From Dehalococcoidales bacterium (GTDB lineage: Bacteria; Chloroflexota; Dehalococcoidia; Dehalococcoidales; RBG-16-60-22), in the NCBI GenBank assembly GCA_002688435.1, contig NZCW01000008.1:4642-41804 (forward strand): 37,163 bases of DNA, in the 5' to 3' direction. A program made the position numbers and the translations under genes. Shown one piece after another: positions 2 through 21,982 of the stretch (positions within the stretch are counted from its first letter, which is position 1; every line of letters starts with the position of its first letter). The notes beneath the pieces were generated by a model, which did not search any database, was not told where the DNA came from, and saw only the letters and a list, made by a program, of their open reading frames with translations.

Positions 2-1297
2 AGCCCGTATCGAGACCGTTCCATTGAGGGAAACCTCGATTTGATCAGGCGTATGCGGGCCGGTGAATTCCCGGATGGTTCACGTGTGCTCCGCGCGAAG
101 ATTGACATGGCTTCCCGTAATTTAAATATGCGTGATCCGGTCATGTATCGTATCCTGCATGCCGAGCACCCTCGCACAGGCGATAAATGGTGCATATACC
201 CGATGTACGACTGGGCTCATGGCCTTGGGGATTCCATCGAAAGGATTACCCATTCCATCTGTACACTGGAATTTGAAGACCATCGTCCACTATATGACTG
301 GTTTCTAGACGAGCTGGGCGTTTATCATCCTCGGCAAATCGAATTTGCCCGACTGAACCTTACCTACACCGTGATGAGCAAGCGCATGCTTCTGGAACTG
401 GTACAGGGAGAGTATGTGAGTGGATGGGACGACCCACGACTGCCGACGATATCGGGTTTGCGCCGGCGCGGCTATACACCAGATTCCATTCGTAACTTTT
501 CTCGATGCATTGGCGTGGCGAAGACCGGTAGTACCATCGATATTGCTTTGCTTGAGCATAACCTACGCGAGGATTTAAACAGGCGGGTTCAACGTGTTAT
601 GGCAGTGCTGCGCCCGCTACGGGTGGTTATTGAGAACTATCCTGAAGATCAGGTGGAAGAAATGGATGCGGTGAATAATCCTGAGGATCTCGGTATGGGG
701 ACACGAAAGATACCATTTTCACGCGTGCTGTATATCGAGCGAGATGATTTTCGTGAAGAACCACCGAAAAAGTTCTTTCGTCTGGCGCTGGGTCGTGAGG
801 TGCGGCTGAGGTACGCGTACTTCATTACCTGTGTTGATGTGGTCAGGGATGAACAGAGCGGAGAAGTGATTGAGCTCCGCTGTACTTATGACCCAGCCAC
901 ACGAGGTGGTGACTCCGCGGGTGGCCGGAAGGTCAGGGCAACTTTGCACTGGGTTTCGGCCGAGCATGCCCTCGAAGCTGAAGTACGCCTGTACGAGCAT
1001 TTGTTCAGTAAGGAAGATCCAACGGCTACTGGGATTGTGGTAAACAGACTGACCCACACTGATGTTGAGAAGAAGGCTGATTTTAAGGACTATTTGAACC
1101 CCGATTCCTTGGAGATATTAACGTCGTGTCGTGTTGAACCTGGTCTTGCCGGCGCAACTCCTGGAGATTGGTATCAATTTGAGAGGCAGGGCTATTTCTG
1201 TGTTGATACGGATTCATCTACCGGGAAAATGGTATTCAATCGGTCGGTGCCGTTAAGGGACACTTGGGCAAAGATAGAGAAACAAGGGGACACGTAA
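2..1297 (+). CDS. glnS: Glutaminyl-tRNA synthetase, 3' part (5' end outside window)
   Basis: Class I aminoacyl-tRNA synthetase that charges tRNA-Gln in the cytoplasm. The frame is open from base 2 and its first residues ([12 protein letters not shown]) match the interior of GlnRS, so the TTG at 41 is not the start; the HIGH motif and N-terminus lie outside the window. Visible GlnRS signatures are the RAKIDMAS and CIYPMYD blocks, the KMSKS-equivalent VMSKR (about bases 371-385), [17 protein letters not shown], and the C-terminal anticodon-binding beta-barrels ending in a TAA stop at 1295-1297. A GlnRS rather than a GatCAB-dependent GluRS is supported by the close match to bacterial GlnRS over the whole length. 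The next gene is about 180 bases downstream on the same strand. Confidence 0.97.
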
Positions 1298-1476: not shown

Positions 1477-1911
1477 ATGAAAAGGACTTTTAAAGACTGG
1501 CTTATCATTCTGGTATTGTTACTGGACGAATTAGCCGCCGTAGTCCTGGTGCTAGCCATCCTGTGGTTTTTACAGATAAGAGTGCCTCTGTGGGTGGCGA
1601 TTTTCGGAGCACTGGTGCTGGGCGCTTTCGCCTTCGTCGCCCATAAGGTGGTCGTACCTAGCTTCCATATGAAAAAAGTCACCGGTCCGGAGGGAATGAT
1701 TGGCTTGGAAGGTGAGGTGGTAGAGCCGTTAACGCTGACGGGTGTTGTTCGTGTGACTGGGGAATACTGGCAGGCGAAGTCGATGGCCGGGGACATATCG
1801 GTCGGTGAGGATGTTGAGGTTTTGGGATTAAACAAGCTTGTCCTTACCGTCAGGCGCAAAGTCTGTAGTCAAGAAGGTAAAAAAACCGATGGTAGGAACT
1901 GTGGAGCCTGA
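1477..1911 (+). CDS. NfeD-like short membrane protein
   Basis: Small integral membrane protein of 144 residues. Two hydrophobic segments (about residues 8-28 and 33-55) are followed by a soluble beta-rich region of about 70 residues (GLEGEVVEPLTLTGVVRV, then WQAKSMAG and VGEDVEVLGL) that matches the OB-fold C-terminal domain of NfeD. Short NfeD proteins usually partner a stomatin/SPFH protein in membrane quality control, but no stomatin gene is visible here. The only Shine-Dalgarno-like element (AGGA near 1458) is rather far from the ATG. The last 23 bases overlap the start of the radical SAM gene, so the two may have been translationally coupled. The tail after VRRK is polar and not conserved-looking. 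Confidence 0.8.
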   Translation: MKRTFKDWLIILVLLLDELAAVVLVLAILWFLQIRVPLWVAIFGALVLGAFAFVAHKVVVPSFHMKKVTGPEGMIGLEGEVVEPLTLTGVVRVTGEYWQAKSMAGDISVGEDVEVLGLNKLVLTVRRKVCSQEGKKTDGRNCGA

Positions 1912-2899
1912 ATATGTAGCTCTGTACTGGTCAGGAGAGCTGGCGCGCCGGATAGAGCGACTGGAACGGCGTCTACGTTCGTGTGATATCTGCCCGAGGG
2001 AATGTGGCGCTAACCGGCGGGAAGGTGAGTTAGGATTTTGCCGTTGTACGCATCGGCCCATAGTCCCGGTGGCTTGTGTACATTACGGAGAGGAACCGGT
2101 CGTCTCCGGGACCAATGGGTCGGGGACGGTCTTCTTTGGTAACTGTAATCTGCGGTGTGTTTATTGCCAGAACTACCAGATAAGCCAGGACGGGAAAAGC
2201 CAACGGACTAAAGAAATTGATCCTCAGGCCATGGCGGAGCGTATGCTTTACCTCCAGAATGAACTCTGCTGTCATAACATTAATTTCGTTTCGCCTTCTC
2301 ATTTTATTCCGCAGTTGGTACGGGCATTGCTGACGGCGGTGCCGATGGGACTTCATTTGCCACTAGTCTATAATACCAACAGCTACGACTCCATTAAATC
2401 TCTACGTGAGCTTAAAGGCGTTATCGGTGTTTACCTGGCCGATTTGAGATATGCCTCCGATAAATGGGGCCAGAGATTTTCCCGGGTTTCCGATTACGTG
2501 TCATAAGCCCGCGCCGCGATTCAAGAGATGTATTGGTAGGTCGGTGACCTGGTGGTGGATGACGAAGGTATTGCCTGGAAGGGATTGATAGTGCGCCACC
2601 TTATTCTGCCCAACCGGCTGGCAGGCAGCCGGGACTCACTCAACTGGCTGGTGAGTGAGGTTTCACCTGCGGTTGCCGTCAGTATCATGTCCCAGTATTA
2701 TCCCGCTCACCGGGCTAGGCGTATTCCCCTTCTTGCCAGGCAAATCTTGTCGTCAGAGTATGCAGAAGTGATGGCATTACTGGAAGAACTGGAGATGGAA
2801 AACGGGTGGGTACAGGAAATGGGAGCCGCCGAGAGCTACTTGCCTGATTTTATCGGTAAGAGTCACCCGTTTGATACGGTAGTCGGTAGCCGAAGGTGA
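1889..2899 (+). pseudogene. Radical SAM protein (COG1313, PflA-like), interrupted by two in-frame stops
   Basis: Reading through stops, this is a full-length member of the PflA-like radical SAM family found with or like the AmmeMemoRadiSam proteins. It has an N-terminal four-cysteine motif (C32, C35, C39, C51), then the SAM-cluster motif CNLRCVYC (C86, C90, C93). TAA at 2504-2506 and TAG at 2537-2539 fall in the conserved region read as YVS-stop-ARAAIQEMYW-stop-VGDL, where the family normally has an arginine-glutamine pair before VGDL. The frame does not change, and the C-terminal part (GLIVRHLILPNRLAGS and on to 2899) is well preserved. The likely original start is the ATG at 1889, preceded by AGAAGG. 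A truncated 205-residue product could be made but would lack part of the barrel. Function is uncertain; inactivation is probable. Confidence 0.85.
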
Positions 2900-12689: not shown

Positions 12690-15425
12690 GTGGAGAACTA
12701 CATTTCGACGCCGGTTACCCGGAAAGCTCTGGTGGTTGGCGGCGGCGTCGCCGGCATTCAGGCAGCTCTGGATATCGCTGACGCCGGGTATGAAGTGTTT
12801 CTGGTGGAGAAAAGCCCCAGCATTGGCGGACATATGATTCAATATGCGGAAGTATTTCCGACTCTAGACTGTCCGCAATGTATCCTGACCCCCAAGATGG
12901 TGGAAATCGGACAACACCCGAATATAAAGCTCCTGACCTACTCAGAAGTGGCGCAGGTTTCCGGTCAGATAGGGCGCTTTACCGTTCAGGTTAAAAGGAA
13001 AGCCTCTTATGTCGATTGGGAAAAATGTACCGGCTGTGGCGAATGTGCTAATGTCTGTCCGGTGGAAGTATATAGCGAATTCGAACGCGGTATCGTTAGA
13101 CAAAAAGCAATCTATAAACCTTTCGGCCAGGCGGTGCCCGCTGTCTTTACGGTGGATAAGAGAGGGATTGCTCCCTGCCGGGCGGCCTGTCCTCTGCAAG
13201 TCAATGCCCAAGGGTATGTTTCCTTAATCTCCCAAGGTAGATTCACTGAGGCCTTGAATCTTGTCCGGGAGAAAACCCCTTTTCCTGGAATTTGCGGGCG
13301 GATATGTACTCGTCCCTGTGAAAGCCAATGTACCAGAAGAGAGATGGATATGCCTCTGGCCATTAATGATTTGAAAAGATTCGTGTCCGATCAGGAAAAA
13401 GAGCCGGCCATTGACCTGACTATAGCCTCGGAAATAGAAGAGAAAGTTGCCATTATCGGCGCTGGTCCGGCCGGTCTTATGGCGGCCTATGAACTCAGAA
13501 AAACGGGCTACCAAGTGACCATCTTTGAGACTTTACCCGCGGCCGGAGGGATGATGTGGGTCGGTATCCCGGAATATCGTCTGCCCCGAGATACTTTGCA
13601 GAAGGAAATTAGCCTTATTCAGAAAATAGGGGTAGCCATCAAGTTTAACACCACCATTGGGGAACAAGTGCCGCTAGCGACTCTTAAAGACGAGTTCAAC
13701 GCCGTATTTATTGCCACTGGCGCCCATGTCAGTGTGAAACTGGGGGTGGAAGGGGAGAACTTGGCCGGGGTGAAATACGGTATTGATTTTCTGAGAGAAG
13801 TGAATCTGAATGGTAAGTTTGAGGTAGGGGAAAGAGTGGTGGTGGTGGGGGGTGGTAATGCTGCCATCGATGCGGCGAGGACGGCATATCGGTTAGGGGC
13901 GAAAGTAGTATCCATAGTTTATCGCCGTTCTCGGGAAGAGATACCGGCTATCCCTGGTGAGGTTATTGAGGCCGAGAGAGAAGGCATAAAAATCAGTTAC
14001 CTGACAGACCCGGTTAGAATCGTGGGTGAAAATGGTAAAGTCAGAGGCATAGAATGCCTCAAGACTAAACTGGGTCCCCCTGACGAGAATGGAAGAAGAC
14101 GTCCCATTCCGGTGGATGGTTCGGAATTCTTTCTGGAAGCCGACATGATAATTCCCGCCATCGGACAGGTCCCCGACGTAGCTTTTCTCGGTGATGAAAC
14201 TGGAATGGTATTGAAGCCCGGGAATCAACTTGAAGTCGATGAGACGACACTTCAGACCACGACCGAAGGTATCTTCGCCGGTGGGGACGTGGTGACTGGT
14301 CCCAATGCGGTAATCGATGCGCTAGCGGCCGGCCGGAGGGCCGCTATCTCCATTGACCGGTATTTGCGTGGGGAAAATCTGACGGTAAGTCGGGAAGATA
14401 CCGAACTGACGATAAGTGCATTGAAAGTGGATATGGCCGGTATTCGCCAGCAGAAAAGGACCGATATGCCGGTAATCCCGCCCACCCGGAGGGCGGGTAA
14501 TTTTCGAGAAGTGGCCCTGGGGTTAAACGAAAGGGACGCTATCAGAGAAGCTAAGAGATGCCTCGCTTGTCCCGGTTGTTCCGAATGCCGCCTCTGTGAG
14601 AAGGCTTGTGAACCAAAGGTTATCCACCACGAGATGAGGGAACGGTACGAGGAACTGGAAGTAGGCGCTATCGTACTGGCCACCGGCTTTGAACTTATCC
14701 CCAAAGAGGCAATTGCCGAGTTTGAACCGGACCCTGATATCCTAGAAGGGATTCAATTTGAAAGAATCCTCTGTCCTGGGGGTTCTACGGCCGGGGTGGT
14801 GGAAAGGCCTTCCGACCGGAAAGTACCTAAAGAAGTGGTCTTTATTTCCTGCGTGGGATCCCGCGATCCCGAACATGGTGTGCCTTATTGCTCCAGGGTC
14901 TGCTGTATGTATCTGGCCAAGATGGCCATGCTCTACAAGCATGCCGTTCCCGATGGCCAGGCGTATGTTTTCTATATGGATATCCGCAGCACCGGAAAAG
15001 GCTACGAGGAGTTTGTGCAAAGGGCGGTGGAAGAGGCCGGCGTTCTGTACCTGAGAGGAAGAGTGTCCCGCGTATTCCGTGATGGGGAAAAACTTAAAGT
15101 CAGTGGGGTGGATACTCTTTCCGGGAAGAACGTTGATATTTCCGGCGACTTAGTGGTACTGGGACTGGCGATGGTGCCTAACCCGGCGGGCCAAGAACTG
15201 GCGCAAAGGTTGGGTATCGTCACTGATGAATACGGCTTTATCACCGAAAGTCACCCTAAAATGAATCCTTTGGAGACATCAGTGCCGGGCATCTATGTTG
15301 CCGGTACGGCTCAAGGCCCCAGGGATATCCCTGACTCAGTCGCCCAGGCCAGCGGGGCGGCCAGTAAGGTTCTGGCTCTGTTCTCCGCCAGTGAACCGGT
15401 GCCAGGAAGAATGGGATCGAGATGA
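12690..15425 (+). CDS. hdrA: HdrA-like flavoprotein with a nested GltD/NfnB-like domain
   Basis: A 911-residue fusion. Residues 1-160 are the start of HdrA: FAD motif VVGGGVAGIQAA, EKSPSIGGHM, the CPQC pair (C61, C64) and a [4Fe-4S] motif at C113-C123. Residues about 163-625 are an inserted glutamate-synthase-small-subunit type module: CRAACPLQ and the Cys-rich CGRICTRPCESQC helix bundle, FAD motif IIGAGPAGLMAA (about 255), NAD(P) motif VVVGGGNAAIDAA (about 383), and TTEGIFAGGDVV. From about 626 the HdrA reading resumes (CSECRLCEKACEP, ELEVGAIVLATGFE, FISCVGSRDP, YCSRVCCM) to the end. The insert would let NAD(P)H donate to, or be made by, the HdrA flavin. Likely start is the GTG at 12690. Its last four bases overlap the next gene. 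Confidence 0.93.
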   Translation: MENYISTPVTRKALVVGGGVAGIQAALDIADAGYEVFLVEKSPSIGGHMIQYAEVFPTLDCPQCILTPKMVEIGQHPNIKLLTYSEVAQVSGQIGRFTVQVKRKASYVDWEKCTGCGECANVCPVEVYSEFERGIVRQKAIYKPFGQAVPAVFTVDKRGIAPCRAACPLQVNAQGYVSLISQGRFTEALNLVREKTPFPGICGRICTRPCESQCTRREMDMPLAINDLKRFVSDQEKEPAIDLTIASEIEEKVAIIGAGPAGLMAAYELRKTGYQVTIFETLPAAGGMMWVGIPEYRLPRDTLQKEISLIQKIGVAIKFNTTIGEQVPLATLKDEFNAVFIATGAHVSVKLGVEGENLAGVKYGIDFLREVNLNGKFEVGERVVVVGGGNAAIDAARTAYRLGAKVVSIVYRRSREEIPAIPGEVIEAEREGIKISYLTDPVRIVGENGKVRGIECLKTKLGPPDENGRRRPIPVDGSEFFLEADMIIPAIGQVPDVAFLGDETGMVLKPGNQLEVDETTLQTTTEGIFAGGDVVTGPNAVIDALAAGRRAAISIDRYLRGENLTVSREDTELTISALKVDMAGIRQQKRTDMPVIPPTRRAGNFREVALGLNERDAIREAKRCLACPGCSECRLCEKACEPKVIHHEMRERYEELEVGAIVLATGFELIPKEAIAEFEPDPDILEGIQFERILCPGGSTAGVVERPSDRKVPKEVVFISCVGSRDPEHGVPYCSRVCCMYLAKMAMLYKHAVPDGQAYVFYMDIRSTGKGYEEFVQRAVEEAGVLYLRGRVSRVFRDGEKLKVSGVDTLSGKNVDISGDLVVLGLAMVPNPAGQELAQRLGIVTDEYGFITESHPKMNPLETSVPGIYVAGTAQGPRDIPDSVAQASGAASKVLALFSASEPVPGRMGSR

Positions 15426-17383
15426 GAGGTAAAAGAATCGGGGTCTTCGTCTGTCATTGCGGGCTGAATATCGCCGGCTCGGTGGATGTGGTGAAAGTTA
15501 TCGAGCAGATAAGTAATTACCCAGGGGTGACTCATGCTGAGCATTATATCTATATGTGCTCCGATCCAGGGCAAGAGATAGTCCGGAAGGCTATCCGGGA
15601 AAAGAATCTCGATGGTGTTGTCATGAGTAACTGCTCACCCTCGTTACACGAACATACCTTCCGTAATCTGGTGACTTCCGAAGGGTTAAATCCCTATCAT
15701 TGTGAGATAGCTAACATCAGGGAACAGTGCAGTTGGCCTCATCTGGCCGATAAAGAAACAGCGACCAAAAAAGCGGTAGCCATTACCAAAACGGTTATTG
15801 AGAAAGTGCGACGTAATTTAGCCTTAACTCCTATGGTCGTTCCACTGACTAAAAAAGTCCTTATTATCGGAGCCGGAATCGCCGGTATGCAGGCGGCTAT
15901 GGATATCGCCGATGGCGGCTACGAGGTAGTCCTAGTGGAAAAAACCCCCACCATTGGCGGCCATGCTACTCAACTATCAAGGACTTTTCCTACTCTGGAA
16001 AACATTACCGACTTGGTGGTGCCTGTGATGGAAAAAGTGGCAGCGCACCCTAATATCAGGCTTCATGTTTATTCTGAGGTGGAAGAAATTTCCGGCTACG
16101 TGGGTAATTTTCAGGTGAGTCTCCGGCAGAAAACTTCTTTTGTCGATAGAGAAAAATGTAACTATTGCGGCCTTTGCTTGGGAAGCTGCCCTGTCACGGT
16201 ACCTGCTGAGTTTGAGCGAGGTCTCTTCTCGAGAGGGGCCATCTATCTTCCCTTCCTTCAAGCCGTCCCGCCACGGCCGGTAATTGACCGCCAGTCCTGT
16301 CTCCATCTTAACGGCGGCTGCTGCCGGGCCTGCCAGGATGTTTGCCCGGTTCAGGCTATTGATTTCCAGCAGTCGGATACTATAGTGGAAGAAAAAGTAG
16401 GCGCCATTATCGTAGCTACCGGCTATGAGCTGTATCCAGGGGATGGTACTGATGAATATGCCTCCGACGCGGATGTAATTGACGGACTTCAATTTGAGAG
16501 GCTGCTGGCTTCCTCCAGTTCCACCAACGGTGAAATCAATAGACCTTCCGACGGTAAAGTGCCCCGACAGGTGGTCTTTATTCAATGCGTTGGCTCTCGT
16601 GATCCCGAGCACGGCGTGGCCTATTGCTCACGGGTATGCTGTATGTCTACTGCGAAACAGGCCATGCTTTATAAAAAAGCGGTTCCTGATGGGCAGGCGT
16701 ACGTTTTCTATATGGATATTCGCTCCGATGCCAAAGGCTACGAAGAGTTTGTGCAGAGAGTAATGGACGAAGAAAAAGTGCTTTACCTCAGGGGAAAAGT
16801 GTCCCGCGTATTCCGGGACGGCGAATACCTTAAAGTCTGGGGGGTGGATACCTTGGCCGGAAAAGATGTTGAAATCTCGGCTGACTTGGTCGTCTTGGCG
16901 ACGGCCATAGTGCCTAATCCTGGCGCCAAAGACCTGGCCCGAAAACTGAACATTATCTCGGATAGTTATGGCTTTATCACCGAGGCGCATATCAAGCTCC
17001 GGCCGATGGAAACCCTGACCGCCGGGATTTACTTGGCGGGCGTCGCCCAGTGGCCAAGAGACCTTCCCGATACCATCTCGTCAGCCAGTGGCGCTGCTAG
17101 TAAAATTCTCTCACTTTTCTCTAGAAAAGAGCTACTCCATGCCCCCACAGTAGCTGTAGTTGACGCAGAGGTGTGTAATGGCTGCGGGCAATGTGTTGCC
17201 GTTTGTGCCTATAAAGCCATTGAGCTTGACGCTAGGAGTAAAGTGGCGCTGGTTAATGAGGCTGTCTGCGAAGGCTGTGGCGCTTGCGCCGTGACCTGTC
17301 CATCCAAAGCGGTGCAGCATAAAAACTGGACGCCCGGGCAGCTCTTCGAGATAATAAACGTGGCCATTGACGAATACGTGTAG
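15422..17383 (+). CDS. hdrA: HdrA-like flavoprotein, complete form
   Basis: A 653-residue HdrA with the full N-terminal domain (residues 1-140, with C11, C13, C46, C71 and C103, and MSNCSPSLHEHTFR), FAD motif IIGAGIAGMQAAMDIAD (about 148), ferredoxin motifs at C246-C256 and about C293-C308 (with an unusually long LHLNGGC spacing), and a C-terminal two-cluster ferredoxin domain (CNGCGQCVAVCAY, CEGCGACAVTCPS). The CxxC seen in the first HdrA after FPTLD is replaced by FPTLENITDLVV, so that pair is lost here. ATG overlaps the preceding stop as ATGA. In bifurcating complexes the HdrA FAD splits electron pairs; this copy is the best candidate for the central flavin. Confidence 0.94.
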   Translation: MRGKRIGVFVCHCGLNIAGSVDVVKVIEQISNYPGVTHAEHYIYMCSDPGQEIVRKAIREKNLDGVVMSNCSPSLHEHTFRNLVTSEGLNPYHCEIANIREQCSWPHLADKETATKKAVAITKTVIEKVRRNLALTPMVVPLTKKVLIIGAGIAGMQAAMDIADGGYEVVLVEKTPTIGGHATQLSRTFPTLENITDLVVPVMEKVAAHPNIRLHVYSEVEEISGYVGNFQVSLRQKTSFVDREKCNYCGLCLGSCPVTVPAEFERGLFSRGAIYLPFLQAVPPRPVIDRQSCLHLNGGCCRACQDVCPVQAIDFQQSDTIVEEKVGAIIVATGYELYPGDGTDEYASDADVIDGLQFERLLASSSSTNGEINRPSDGKVPRQVVFIQCVGSRDPEHGVAYCSRVCCMSTAKQAMLYKKAVPDGQAYVFYMDIRSDAKGYEEFVQRVMDEEKVLYLRGKVSRVFRDGEYLKVWGVDTLAGKDVEISADLVVLATAIVPNPGAKDLARKLNIISDSYGFITEAHIKLRPMETLTAGIYLAGVAQWPRDLPDTISSASGAASKILSLFSRKELLHAPTVAVVDAEVCNGCGQCVAVCAYKAIELDARSKVALVNEAVCEGCGACAVTCPSKAVQHKNWTPGQLFEIINVAIDEYV

Positions 17384-17392
17384 GTAGTGAAT

Positions 17393-20300
17393 ATGGACAA
17401 ACTGAATTCAGTTCTGGTTATCGGAGCTGGGGTAGGTGGAATGAAAGCCTCATTGGATCTGGCGGAAGCTGGATTTAAGGTCTACCTCTGTGACCGGAGC
17501 TCCGCCATCGGCGGTACTCTTATACGGGTGGACAAGTGGTTCCCGGATAACCATTGCGGGCTGTGCCAGATGCTCCCTGTTTTCTCTGCCGATAATTCGT
17601 CCCGGTTTTGCTTACGTCGCGGTCTTACCCATCCTGATATAGAGCTTATGCCGCTCACCGAAGTAAAAGAGGTGGCCGGGCAGGCAGGAGATTTCCGGAT
17701 TGGCGTAACCTCTCGGGCAGCTGGCGTAATTCCTGAGTTATGCATCAGCTGCGGACTCTGCACCGAGGTCTGTCCGGTAGAGACCGCTAGCGAATTTAAC
17801 GAAGGACTGTCACCGCGCAAAGCAATCTATACAGTCCATCCTGGCATCCTCCCCTATGTTTACACGGTTGACTGGGATAGCTGCACTAAATGCGGCGCCT
17901 GTGTGGCGAAATGCCCGACACAGGCTATCCGCCTTAGAGAAATGGAAATGATAAAACAGCTACGGGTGGGCGCGGTTATCTTGGCAACTGGCTTTGAGAA
18001 ATTTGATCCGGCATTAGCTTCTCAGTACGGCTACCAGCGCTATCCTAACGTACTAACCGGCATCGAACTGGAAAGAATAATCAGCCCGGGCGGTCCCACC
18101 GACGGAGATTTACTTCGCCCTTCCGATAACCGGACTCCCAAGTCAATCGCCTTCCTCCAGTGCGTCGGCTCTAGGGACAATCGGAAAGATTACTGCTCAT
18201 CAGTCTGCTGCATGTTTGCATTGAAGGAGGCTACCCTACTCAAGCAGGCTAACCCGGAAATTGATATCCATATCTTCTATATGGACATCCGGGCTTTTGG
18301 TAAGGACCACTACCGTTACTACCAGCGGGCTAGAGATGAATTAGGGATAAAGTTCATTCGCGGCCGTGTCCCGGTAATCCGGGAGGACTCGCCCACCAAG
18401 AATCTCGTCCTCACCACCATTGAAGAAAATGAAGCATCGATCAAACGTCAATTTGAGCTGGTGGTACTGTCTGTCGGACAAACCCCACCCCCCCGATTTC
18501 AAGAGCTATGCCAAGTATTGGGGGTAGAGCTGAACCGGTGGGGTTTCTGCCGGAGCGGGCTTTTCTCCCCAGTTAATACTACCCGAGAAGGTATCTATGT
18601 TTGCGGTAGCGCTTCGGCGCCTAAGGATATTGCCGACACTATGGTGGAGGCCGGCGCTGCTGCTGACCGAGCTTCCGGATGGCTGGAACGTCGGATGATA
18701 TCGACAACCTTATCGGAGAAAACGGTGGAGTCGGCTGCGGAAAAAGAAGAGACTCCACGGTTAAGTGTTCTCCTGTGCGATTGTGGGCAGGAGATTTCGT
18801 CGGTGCTTGACCTTGAAGAATTGGCGGAATCCAGCCGGCAGCTGCCTGATATCACCTGTGTGATGCGGATACCTTTTCTGTGTGATGATGACGTCTGGGT
18901 GAAAGTAGATCAGGAGCTACGGAAACATAAGGTTAACCGCCTGGTGATTGGCGCCTGCTCTCATTATTTTAATATACATCTGGCTAAACTTGGGTTTAAT
19001 TCATCCTCCGCCCAAATAGTTAATCTGAGGGAGCACATCGCTTGGGTACACCGGGATAACCGGCAAGCCGCCACGGATAAAGCAAAGAACCTGCTGGCTA
19101 TGGCGGTGGAATTGGTCCGTGCCCTAGAACCCGAGCCGGTCCCTCCGATGAGTATTCATCCCGTGGCGCTAGTTATCGGTGGTGGACTAGCCGGACTGAT
19201 GGCGGCATTGTCTCTTACTCACCACGGAATCGAAGTGCACTTGGTGGAGAAGTCAGCTGGGCTGGGGGGTAATCTGAAGCAAGTATACTATGCACTAGAA
19301 GGAGATGATCCTCAGGTTTTCCGAGAGGACATCATAAATCAGGTAAAGACTAATCGGCTTATCCATGTGGTCCTAGAGACAGAGTTGGTGAAGACGGAAG
19401 GCTATGCCGGGAACTTTGTGGTGAGCTTGAAGGCTAATAAGTCGTCTCTTTACTTTCTGGAGGTAGGCGCGATTATTGTGGCCAGTGGCGGGGAAGAATA
19501 CCGCCCCACCGAGTATCTTTACGGCCAAAATAAGAATATAGTAACGCAAAGAGAACTGGAAAGGAAACTGTTTTCGGCGGAGCTTGACCTGAAAAATATG
19601 GGTTCGGTGGTGATGATTCAGTGCGTAGGTTCTCGGGAAAAAGAAAGGCCATATTGCAGTCGCCTCTGTTGCTCCTGGGCCCTGAAAAACGCCTTGAGAT
19701 TAAAAGAAGGTAATCCTGAAATTGAGGTGACTGTCCTCTATCGGGACATGACCAGCTATGGTTTCCAAGAGGAGTATTATACCCAGGCCAGGGAAAAAGG
19801 GATAATCTTCGTGCGTTATGGACTTGATGGTAAGCCTGAAGTAAGGCAGGAAGAGGAAAGGTTGGTGGTTGAAGTGGCCGAGCCTGTTCTGGGCGGCCGA
19901 CTGGTACTGGAGTCCGACTTGGTGGTTTTGAGTCCAGCGATAATACCCCCAGAGAATACCCCGCTGGCCCGGGCCCTAGGTGTGGACTTGAATGAGGACG
20001 GCTTTTTTCAGGAAGCGGAGATGAAGTTCCGTCCAGTGGATTTTCTCACCGACGGGATTTATGTTTGCGGACTGGCCCACTCTCCGCGAGGAATGGGAGA
20101 GAGCATCGCTCAAGCACAGGCCGCGGCGCAGAGGGCCGTATCTTTGCTTACCAGGGGGTCGCTGGTCTCCGGGATAGCCGTGTCCGAAACTATTCAGAGG
20201 CAATGTTCCCAGTGTGAGCTTTGTATCACCGTCTGCCCTTATACCGCTAGGATGAAAGATGTGGAGAGTGGTCAGGTGGTGGTCCAAGGGGCGTTATGCC

Positions 20301-20401
20301 GAGGTTGTGGAGCCTGTGTGGTGGCCTGTCCTGGTGGCGCCGTCAAACTAATAGGATTTAAAGACCGGCAAGTTTTTTCCTTGATAGACGCTGCTTTTTA
20401 A
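17393..20401 (+). CDS. Tandem HdrA-HdrA flavoprotein (QmoB-like)
   Basis: About 1000 residues formed by two HdrA-type halves. The first half has FAD motif VIGAGVGGMKASL, a CGLC pair, ferredoxin motifs CISCGLCTEVCP (about 117) and CTKCGACVAKCP (about 163), and FLQCVGSRD. The second half begins with an HdrA-like N-terminal domain (LLCDCGQEISS, about 461; VIGACSH), then FAD motif VIGGGLAGLMAAL (about 595), MIQCVGSREK, and a terminal ferredoxin pair (CSQCELCITVCPY, CRGCGACVVACPG). QmoB of sulfate reducers is built from HdrA-like parts plus MvhD; here the MvhD-like part is the separate next gene. The ATG at 17393 is preferred over the GTG at 17387 because AGG lies eight bases before it. Confidence 0.9.
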   Translation: MDKLNSVLVIGAGVGGMKASLDLAEAGFKVYLCDRSSAIGGTLIRVDKWFPDNHCGLCQMLPVFSADNSSRFCLRRGLTHPDIELMPLTEVKEVAGQAGDFRIGVTSRAAGVIPELCISCGLCTEVCPVETASEFNEGLSPRKAIYTVHPGILPYVYTVDWDSCTKCGACVAKCPTQAIRLREMEMIKQLRVGAVILATGFEKFDPALASQYGYQRYPNVLTGIELERIISPGGPTDGDLLRPSDNRTPKSIAFLQCVGSRDNRKDYCSSVCCMFALKEATLLKQANPEIDIHIFYMDIRAFGKDHYRYYQRARDELGIKFIRGRVPVIREDSPTKNLVLTTIEENEASIKRQFELVVLSVGQTPPPRFQELCQVLGVELNRWGFCRSGLFSPVNTTREGIYVCGSASAPKDIADTMVEAGAAADRASGWLERRMISTTLSEKTVESAAEKEETPRLSVLLCDCGQEISSVLDLEELAESSRQLPDITCVMRIPFLCDDDVWVKVDQELRKHKVNRLVIGACSHYFNIHLAKLGFNSSSAQIVNLREHIAWVHRDNRQAATDKAKNLLAMAVELVRALEPEPVPPMSIHPVALVIGGGLAGLMAALSLTHHGIEVHLVEKSAGLGGNLKQVYYALEGDDPQVFREDIINQVKTNRLIHVVLETELVKTEGYAGNFVVSLKANKSSLYFLEVGAIIVASGGEEYRPTEYLYGQNKNIVTQRELERKLFSAELDLKNMGSVVMIQCVGSREKERPYCSRLCCSWALKNALRLKEGNPEIEVTVLYRDMTSYGFQEEYYTQAREKGIIFVRYGLDGKPEVRQEEERLVVEVAEPVLGGRLVLESDLVVLSPAIIPPENTPLARALGVDLNEDGFFQEAEMKFRPVDFLTDGIYVCGLAHSPRGMGESIAQAQAAAQRAVSLLTRGSLVSGIAVSETIQRQCSQCELCITVCPYTARMKDVESGQVVVQGALCRGCGACVVACPGGAVKLIGFKDRQVFSLIDAAF

Positions 20402-20419
20402 TGATAAGGAGGTTAACCG

Positions 20420-20851
20420 TTGGCTGAAGTAGGTCAATTCGAGCCCGTTATCGTGGGGTTTTTCTGCAACTGGTGCACCGCCGCCGCCGCTGATTTGGCG
20501 GGCACATCTCGGATGCAGTATCCACCTAATATCCGCCCCATACGGGTCATGTGTAGCGGTTCGGTAGATCCGGTGTACGTGTTGAGAGCCTTGCTCGGCG
20601 GTGCGGATGGTGTGATTATAGGAGGCTGTCCACCGGGCGATTGTCATTACGTCTCCGGTAACTATAAAGCCAGACGGCGTATGGCTATCCTGAAAACAAT
20701 TCTGGCCACCGTGGGATTAGAGGAAGAACGAGTCTGGGTTAGGTGGATTAGTGCGGCGGAAGGGGCCAGATTTTCCCGGACGATGAATGAACTTACCCAA
20801 GCGATTAAGAAACTGGGACCCAATCCGATGAAAAAAGACTGGTCGATTTGA
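20420..20851 (+). CDS. mvhD: MvhD-like [2Fe-2S] subunit
   Basis: A 143-residue protein of the MvhD/hydrogenase iron-sulfur subunit family. It binds a [2Fe-2S] cluster and connects an electron-input enzyme to HdrA. Cysteines lie in FFCNWC near residue 16-19, in RVMCSGSVDP, and in GGCPPGDCHY. It starts at a TTG preceded by AAGGAGG at good distance. No hydrogenase (MvhA/MvhG) gene is nearby; the next gene encodes an FrhB/FdhB-type flavoprotein, which is the likely input partner. Confidence 0.92.
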   Translation: MAEVGQFEPVIVGFFCNWCTAAAADLAGTSRMQYPPNIRPIRVMCSGSVDPVYVLRALLGGADGVIIGGCPPGDCHYVSGNYKARRRMAILKTILATVGLEEERVWVRWISAAEGARFSRTMNELTQAIKKLGPNPMKKDWSI

Positions 20852-20860
20852 GGAGCTGTA

Positions 20861-21982
20861 ATGTCGAGTAGTGCCATATTGCCAGTTGGGGATGGAGGTA
20901 TACTGGAGGCCGTTAGGGTTTTCCTGGGTAGTCTCTGGCAGAAGAAACTGATTGATGTCTTGCTGGTCCCTCTGGAACTTCCTTCCGGAGGTAACGTGGT
21001 GCCGGCTATCGTGAGTGACCCGAGCAAACTTAAGATGGCCAATCCGTTGGCACCGATAATGCCGCTTAATTCCGCTCGTCAGGTCTCCGCGATAACGAGA
21101 GCCTCTCCCAGTGCCGAAAGGTTAGGGGTGGTGCTGCGACCCTGTGAGATGAGGGCGCTCATCGAACTGGTGAAACTAAAACAGGTCTCACTGGAAAATC
21201 TGCTGCTCATCGGGATTGACTGTCTGGGGACCTACTCCGCAGGTGATTATGGCCGGTTCGCTCAGGAAGTCAAATCTCCGGCTAGCGATTTCTTACGTAA
21301 ATTCCAAGAAGGGAAGGAAGACCCACTCCTGAGAAAAGCCTGTCAGATATGTGAGTATCCCGTCCCGATGAACGCTGACCTGGTTATCGGTTTGCTGGGG
21401 ACGGACTTGAATAATAGTATTCTCCTTAAGGCTGGTACGGTCGCCGGAGAGAGGATAATCGGGGAGCTGGGACTGAAAAAAAGTGATGCCGAGAACCGAG
21501 AGGCGGCCATTACTAAAATGGTTTCCGAAAAGGCGGAGAGAAGAGAACGACTCTTTGCGCAGGTCCGGAAGGATGTCCGAGGTTTGGAGAAACTGATGGC
21601 CACCCTGGCCACCTGTGTCAACTGCCATAATTGTAAGACGGCCTGCCCACTGTGCTACTGCCAGGAATGTTTCTTTGATTCTTCGGTGTTCCAATTCGAA
21701 GCGGAAAAATACTTGGGTTGGGCGCAGCGGCGGGGAGCTCTTCGAATGCCTACCGATACTCTCCTCTTCCACCTGACCCGGTTGAATCACATGGTTATCT
21801 CCTGCGTGGGCTGTGGATTGTGTACCGAGGCTTGCCCCAATAATATACCGGTGGCGGACATCTTTCGACTGGTAGGAGATAAGGTGCAAAAAGATTTTGA
21901 GTATGTCCCTGGTAAGAGTCTGGAGGAAGAACTGCCTCTGACCACCTTCCGGGAAGAAGAGTTACCTAATATCGGGACTTAA
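20861..21982 (+). CDS. FrhB/FdhB-family iron-sulfur flavoprotein subunit
   Basis: A 373-residue member of the F420-hydrogenase/dehydrogenase beta-subunit family, which binds FAD and oxidises or reduces F420, NAD(P)H or a ferredoxin-like carrier. Recognisable blocks are VLRPCEMRALIELVKLKQ and IGIDCLGTYS. Cluster motifs are the dense CVNCHNCKTACPLCYC followed by QECFF (about residue 251-271) and CVGCGLCTEACPNNIPV (about 314-325). In methanogens and related archaea, such proteins deliver F420H2 or formate electrons to HdrA. Here no formate dehydrogenase alpha subunit is present, so the donor is open. Its ATG follows GAGGAG, nine bases after the MvhD-like gene. Confidence 0.87.
   Translation: MSSSAILPVGDGGILEAVRVFLGSLWQKKLIDVLLVPLELPSGGNVVPAIVSDPSKLKMANPLAPIMPLNSARQVSAITRASPSAERLGVVLRPCEMRALIELVKLKQVSLENLLLIGIDCLGTYSAGDYGRFAQEVKSPASDFLRKFQEGKEDPLLRKACQICEYPVPMNADLVIGLLGTDLNNSILLKAGTVAGERIIGELGLKKSDAENREAAITKMVSEKAERRERLFAQVRKDVRGLEKLMATLATCVNCHNCKTACPLCYCQECFFDSSVFQFEAEKYLGWAQRRGALRMPTDTLLFHLTRLNHMVISCVGCGLCTEACPNNIPVADIFRLVGDKVQKDFEYVPGKSLEEELPLTTFREEELPNIGT

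Follow-up and report, generated by a model that had tools for sequence, protein, structure and literature searches.

Both members of a radical SAM family found in the draft genome of a Dehalococcoidales bacterium (hereafter designated G000; 1,197,590 bases, 43 contigs, 80.67% complete) are interrupted by in-frame stop codons, and the member lying in the window, that is, the whole 37,163-nucleotide stretch of DNA analyzed here, is very probably a recently inactivated pseudogene of a PFL-activase-like radical SAM protein. As described in an earlier reading made from the letters alone (hereafter the sequence-only reading), a TAA and a TAG codon with 30 bases between them occur in the same frame, which is otherwise open from before position 1901 to the terminal TGA at 2897–2899 (Table 1). 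The N-terminal open piece retains CNLRCVYC, which we take to be the radical SAM cysteine motif, and matches PF04055 (E 4e-7; 30.8 bits against a cut-off of 29.5), so that the CxxxCxxC motif and the profile match together place the gene in the radical SAM superfamily. The frame is interrupted where those of relatives are intact, as in ordinary bacterial pseudogenes, from which the present case differs in that both members of one family are hit.

Table 1 Features of the interrupted radical SAM gene and its surroundings (window positions unless a contig or locus is named)
Feature	Position	Strand	Remark
Window	G000:C8:4642-41804
Upstream neighbour, intact, NfeD-like, 144 aa	1477..1911	+	overlaps radical SAM gene start
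N-terminal open piece (222 aa from the first start codon)	1838..2506	+	stops at TAA
Interrupted gene, PFL-activase-like radical SAM protein, 332 codons + terminal TGA	1901..2899	+	homology onset ~1889-1901
First in-frame stop, TAA	2504..2506	+	variable column: Arg/His/Ser/Gln in relatives
TGG (Trp) codon directly before TAG	2534..2536	+	Arg in 105/113 rows
Second in-frame stop, TAG	2537..2539	+	Gln in 113/113 rows; C33 paralogue has TAG at same column
C-terminal open piece, 115 aa	2552..2899	+	GTG start possible
Decayed alpha/beta hydrolase near C33 paralogue	L034:9461-10268 (G000 contig C33)	-	two frameshifts, seven stops; open in G001

Conservation was evaluated by column over 113 aligned relative rows at ≥52% identity, which include duplicate loci and of which 90 are distinct. 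Glutamine faces the TAG in every row and arginine faces the preceding Trp in most of them, as had been expected. The proposed C-to-T origin thus fits the TAG and the Trp, whereas it is not decidable for the TAA because the column of the latter varies among relatives (Arg 46, His 29, Ser 9, Gln 8, and others). Elsewhere the protein is indeed well kept: among the 128 columns with ≥90% conservation, 6 deviate, TAG and Trp included; when each of 89 nearly full relatives was left out in turn, the median was 3 such deviations, and 14 of the 89 showed 6 or more. No frameshift, insertion, or deletion was found in the window copy or in its paralogue on contig C33, and this absence, together with the conserved appearance of most of the window protein, is a point against the pseudogene reading.

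Strong matches (E 4e-63 or better, to either copy type) are present in 50 of 60 relatives, and an inspection of the same locus, as recommended in the sequence-only reading, revealed no stop within the conserved core in any of these 50; a TAA flagged in G009 falls at the C-terminal end (alignment position 326), and G010 shows no stop up to alignment position 325. The ten relatives without a strong match are mostly incomplete drafts, although one of them, G033, is 91% complete, and no window-type copy was found in the same-genus G001 (69% complete). The 80 named relatives on the list for this gene are bins from metagenomes; most are titled Dehalococcoidia, Dehalococcoidales, or Chloroflexi, and two Deltaproteobacteria. 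The stop-free orthologues of G005 and G015 share 72% and 71% amino-acid identity with the window frame over 331 residues; the NfeD neighbour reaches 58% and 74%, respectively, and the other three of the four neighbours lie at or below the radical SAM gene. Across 184 columns, lineage-only changes in the window copy numbered 15 in G000 against 5 in G005 (χ2 5.0) and against 6 in G015 (χ2 3.9). This excess is weak, and part of it may reflect a faster lineage, since two neighbours of the C33 paralogue also lean toward G000. Because constraint on the window copy appears only mildly relaxed and its identity to orthologues is no lower than that found for three of the four neighbours, its inactivation is presumably recent, in agreement with the earlier suggestion.

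The consequences of the stops were considered on an AlphaFold2 model of an intact orthologue (22 sequences; pLDDT 68.6, pTM 0.78; weak at residues 29–67 and 80–105), in which both stops fall in helix 199–214, ahead of strands 225–235 and 259–264. The first stop would end the window protein after residue 201 (numbering from position 1901), and the truncated product, according to this moderate-confidence model, would lack both strands, so that it should be inactive. The model is closest to 8fo0, 3cb8, and 3c8f (TM 0.48–0.52 by query length), that is, to the PFL-AE fold, and the PF04055 match of the N-terminal piece is a further likeness to PFL-AE; no PDB sequence match was obtained at E 0.01 or 0.1. 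In contrast to PFL activase and the AmmeMemoRadiSam enzyme, the window gene does not reach the NCBIfam equivalog cut-offs (TIGR04337, 26.1 of 220 bits; TIGR02493, 15.3 of 231.75 bits, both for the N-terminal piece), and the intact orthologue in G005 falls well short too (21.5 bits for TIGR04337). The family is presumably placed near COG1313/PflX. No papers were found for COG1313 or PflX in combination with radical SAM, and a wider literature search found none naming the window gene in the portions of text covered. Since a match to a glycyl radical enzyme is often lacking in genomes with an intact copy, such as G005, G038, and G039, the family is not an obligatory activase of such enzymes. The idea that the gene decayed because its glycyl radical partner had been lost was rejected: Gly_radical is missing from G000, yet the same holds for 20 of 30 relatives, and 19 of these 20 match the gene strongly.

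A profile search of G000 for a second intact copy, a check proposed in the sequence-only reading, detected two family members; the second copy does exist, on contig C33, but is itself broken and more decayed than the window copy. It is 42% identical to the latter and carries a TAA at its residue 104, a TAG at its residue 197, which shares its glutamine column with the window TAG, and, as its third stop, a TAG near its N terminus, where the sequence is shared by relatives although no ATG, GTG, or TTG start was found in the 40 codons before it; its C-terminal TGA falls a few codons early. In G001, the C33-type copy is open, and glutamine codons face all three stops. Over 191 columns with agreeing outgroups, 28 changes are specific to G000 and 1 to G001 (χ2 25), the corresponding ratios for four neighbouring genes being 6:6, 11:3, 8:3, and 2:1, and conserved Pro, Gly, and Arg residues have been lost. 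Judged from these changes in its sequence, the C33 paralogue is clearly decaying. A third, intact member may be missing from the assembly, as this is 81% complete. Nevertheless, because the only other copy found is also broken, an ordinary loss of an unneeded enzyme is favoured over a new reading of stop codons. Presumably, point mutations interrupted both family members in this lineage, the C33 copy decaying first and the window copy being at an early stage that has probably just begun, in an organism that would no longer need the enzyme.

The positions of the stops were compared with the mutational pattern of the lineage. In the compared stretch of the C33 paralogue, 102 of 855 sites differ from G001, and 72 of the 102 are C>T or G>A. 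The per-site rates, with G001 assumed to be the ancestor and the N-terminal TAG lying outside the stretch used for them, predict 2.04 stops at the 11 glutamine codons of the aligned stretch, where 2 are seen, and 0.19 at its single CGA codon, where none is seen. Stops at glutamine codons are thus about what the C-to-T bias predicts. A further point against the pseudogene reading is the stop that both paralogues have at one column, for which the estimated chance is about 0.15, given that 2 of ~11–12 glutamine codons are hit in the paralogue core. Over 8851 bases of the loci L034 (G000) and L036 (G001), unpolarised G001-to-G000 differences comprise G>A 448 and C>T 266 against A>G 150 and T>C 160, while the G+C contents of larger samples are similar (0.518 and 0.523) and do not show a genome-wide shift. 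Loss of uracil-DNA glycosylase as a cause of the C-to-T changes was rejected, with PF03167 being intact in G000. The decayed alpha/beta hydrolase near the C33 paralogue has six of its seven stops at glutamine codons of G001 (3.4 expected) and none at nine Trp codons (2.7 expected), an excess over Trp that we regard as a mild, post hoc oddity.

Read-through, which the sequence-only reading had left as an option, would make a full-length enzyme from both paralogues if a suppressor tRNA or local recoding inserted glutamine at the stops. It accommodates the observation that four of the five TAA and TAG codons inside the two paralogues face glutamine (the window TAG and the TAA and two TAGs of C33; the fifth is at the variable column), the single glutamine column interrupted in both, and the preference of the hydrolase stops for glutamine over Trp; it is nevertheless not supported. 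None of 24 tRNA hits in G000 has a stop anticodon, which is no proof of absence in an assembly 81% complete. RF1 (TIGR00019) is intact and over its cut-off, and a second, weaker release-factor match, probably RF2, is free of stops. A pyrrolysine route was rejected, since the TIGR02367 matches in G000 reach 29.5 and 20.5 bits where PylS requires 178.15 bits; matches below this cut-off are also the case in 12 of 14 control genomes. Moreover, 133 aligned G000 genes end near the reference end in TAA (48), TGA (45), or TAG (40), so that TAA and TAG terminate 88 of them; this survey of 191 intervals, from which stop-bearing intervals had been excluded beforehand, was used for terminators only. From terminator use and the release-factor, tRNA, and PylS results, TAA and TAG still mean stop in most genes seen, and neither a decoding tRNA nor a release-factor change, either of which would mark recoding, was detected in G000. 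Read-through would also leave unexplained the loss of conserved Pro, Gly, and Arg residues from the C33 copy. The frameshifts of the hydrolase and the small number of internal stops kept in a 495-kb sample of G000 (see below) count against it as well, and the C-to-T bias by itself predicts stops at glutamine; we consider it very improbable. A variant in which the stop at the shared conserved glutamine serves as a leaky switch, read as glutamine and holding down production of the radical SAM enzyme in this lineage, seems even less credible.

The same sample of 495 kb of G000 bears on whether the stops arise from the assembly or from general damage. An internal stop persisted in 9 of 223 matched intervals (of which 189 were not shadowed) once the filter had removed 12 stop-bearing intervals that were antisense shadows and 2 that were 5′ extensions, and genome-wide decay or damage was rejected on this basis. 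About four of the nine are convincing by eye, namely both radical SAM copies, the hydrolase, and a dehydrogenase fragment, whereas L178:13510-14202 overlies two long open frames in other frames and has a G001 counterpart without a Pfam match, the stop in L178:18820-19449 lies 8 residues from the reference end, and hits in L047, L185, and L049 sit in gapped or weak alignments. The same filter left stops in 1 interval of 203 for G005 (3 shadows and 1 extension removed), in none of 115 for G003 (nothing removed), in none of 142 for G038 (3 removed), and in 3 of 121 for G001 (5 removed), rates that are rough because the reference sets are unmatched in relatedness and C33 and G001:C106 were picked for holding the paralogue. 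A looser count gave 16 of 182 in G000; with G001 as the sole reference it gave 11 of 51, and in the reverse direction 0 of 47, the extra hits being mostly antisense frames. An assembly or sequencing artefact, with sense codons in the true sequence and a base error or strain mixture behind the stops, would find some support in the draft state of the assembly (43 contigs), but is improbable in view of the low frequency of kept stops, the breakage of the same family on two contigs, and the 28 lineage-specific changes at conserved sites of the C33 paralogue, which are not isolated errors. Gene fission, in which two separately translated pieces would form a working enzyme, could account for both paralogues being broken at the same helix and followed by an open frame with a GTG start; nonetheless, the additional stop at residue 104 and the lost residues of C33, the loss of the stretch between the two window stops, and the unbroken best matches of the 50 relatives, with one oddity in G057, make it exceedingly unlikely. 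In G057, the match ends at residue 252 (C1:1066928-1067671), and a C-terminal piece (residues 263–325) lies elsewhere in the single contig (98581-98769).

Collectively, inactivation of the window gene by ordinary loss has little meaning beyond the host organism. It does suggest that a widely kept, uncharacterised radical SAM family can be lost, and such a natural knock-out may be useful in that its metabolic correlates could hint at the role of the enzyme. It also calls for caution, in that TAA and TAG codons paired at glutamine sites are not proof of recoding when a C-to-T bias predicts a similar pattern. Pseudogenes are reported in sediment bacteria (PMC8406185, PMC13288992), and nonsynonymous change is reported to be raised in subseafloor strains (PMC8406185).

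Several minor observations were made alongside. The dehydrogenase-like fragment on contig C19 (L187:245-469) carries a TAA in frame and, in the comparison with G005, a short gap. Just upstream of the interrupted gene, window positions 2–1297 encode a class I glutamyl/glutaminyl-tRNA synthetase (PF00749, PF03950), which we read as the glutamine type. Farther downstream, at 12690–21982, large FAD and 4Fe-4S proteins (911, 653, and 1004 aa) stand in a row, followed by an FrhB/FdhB-like protein, a run that we take to resemble an electron transfer cluster of the heterodisulfide-reductase type.
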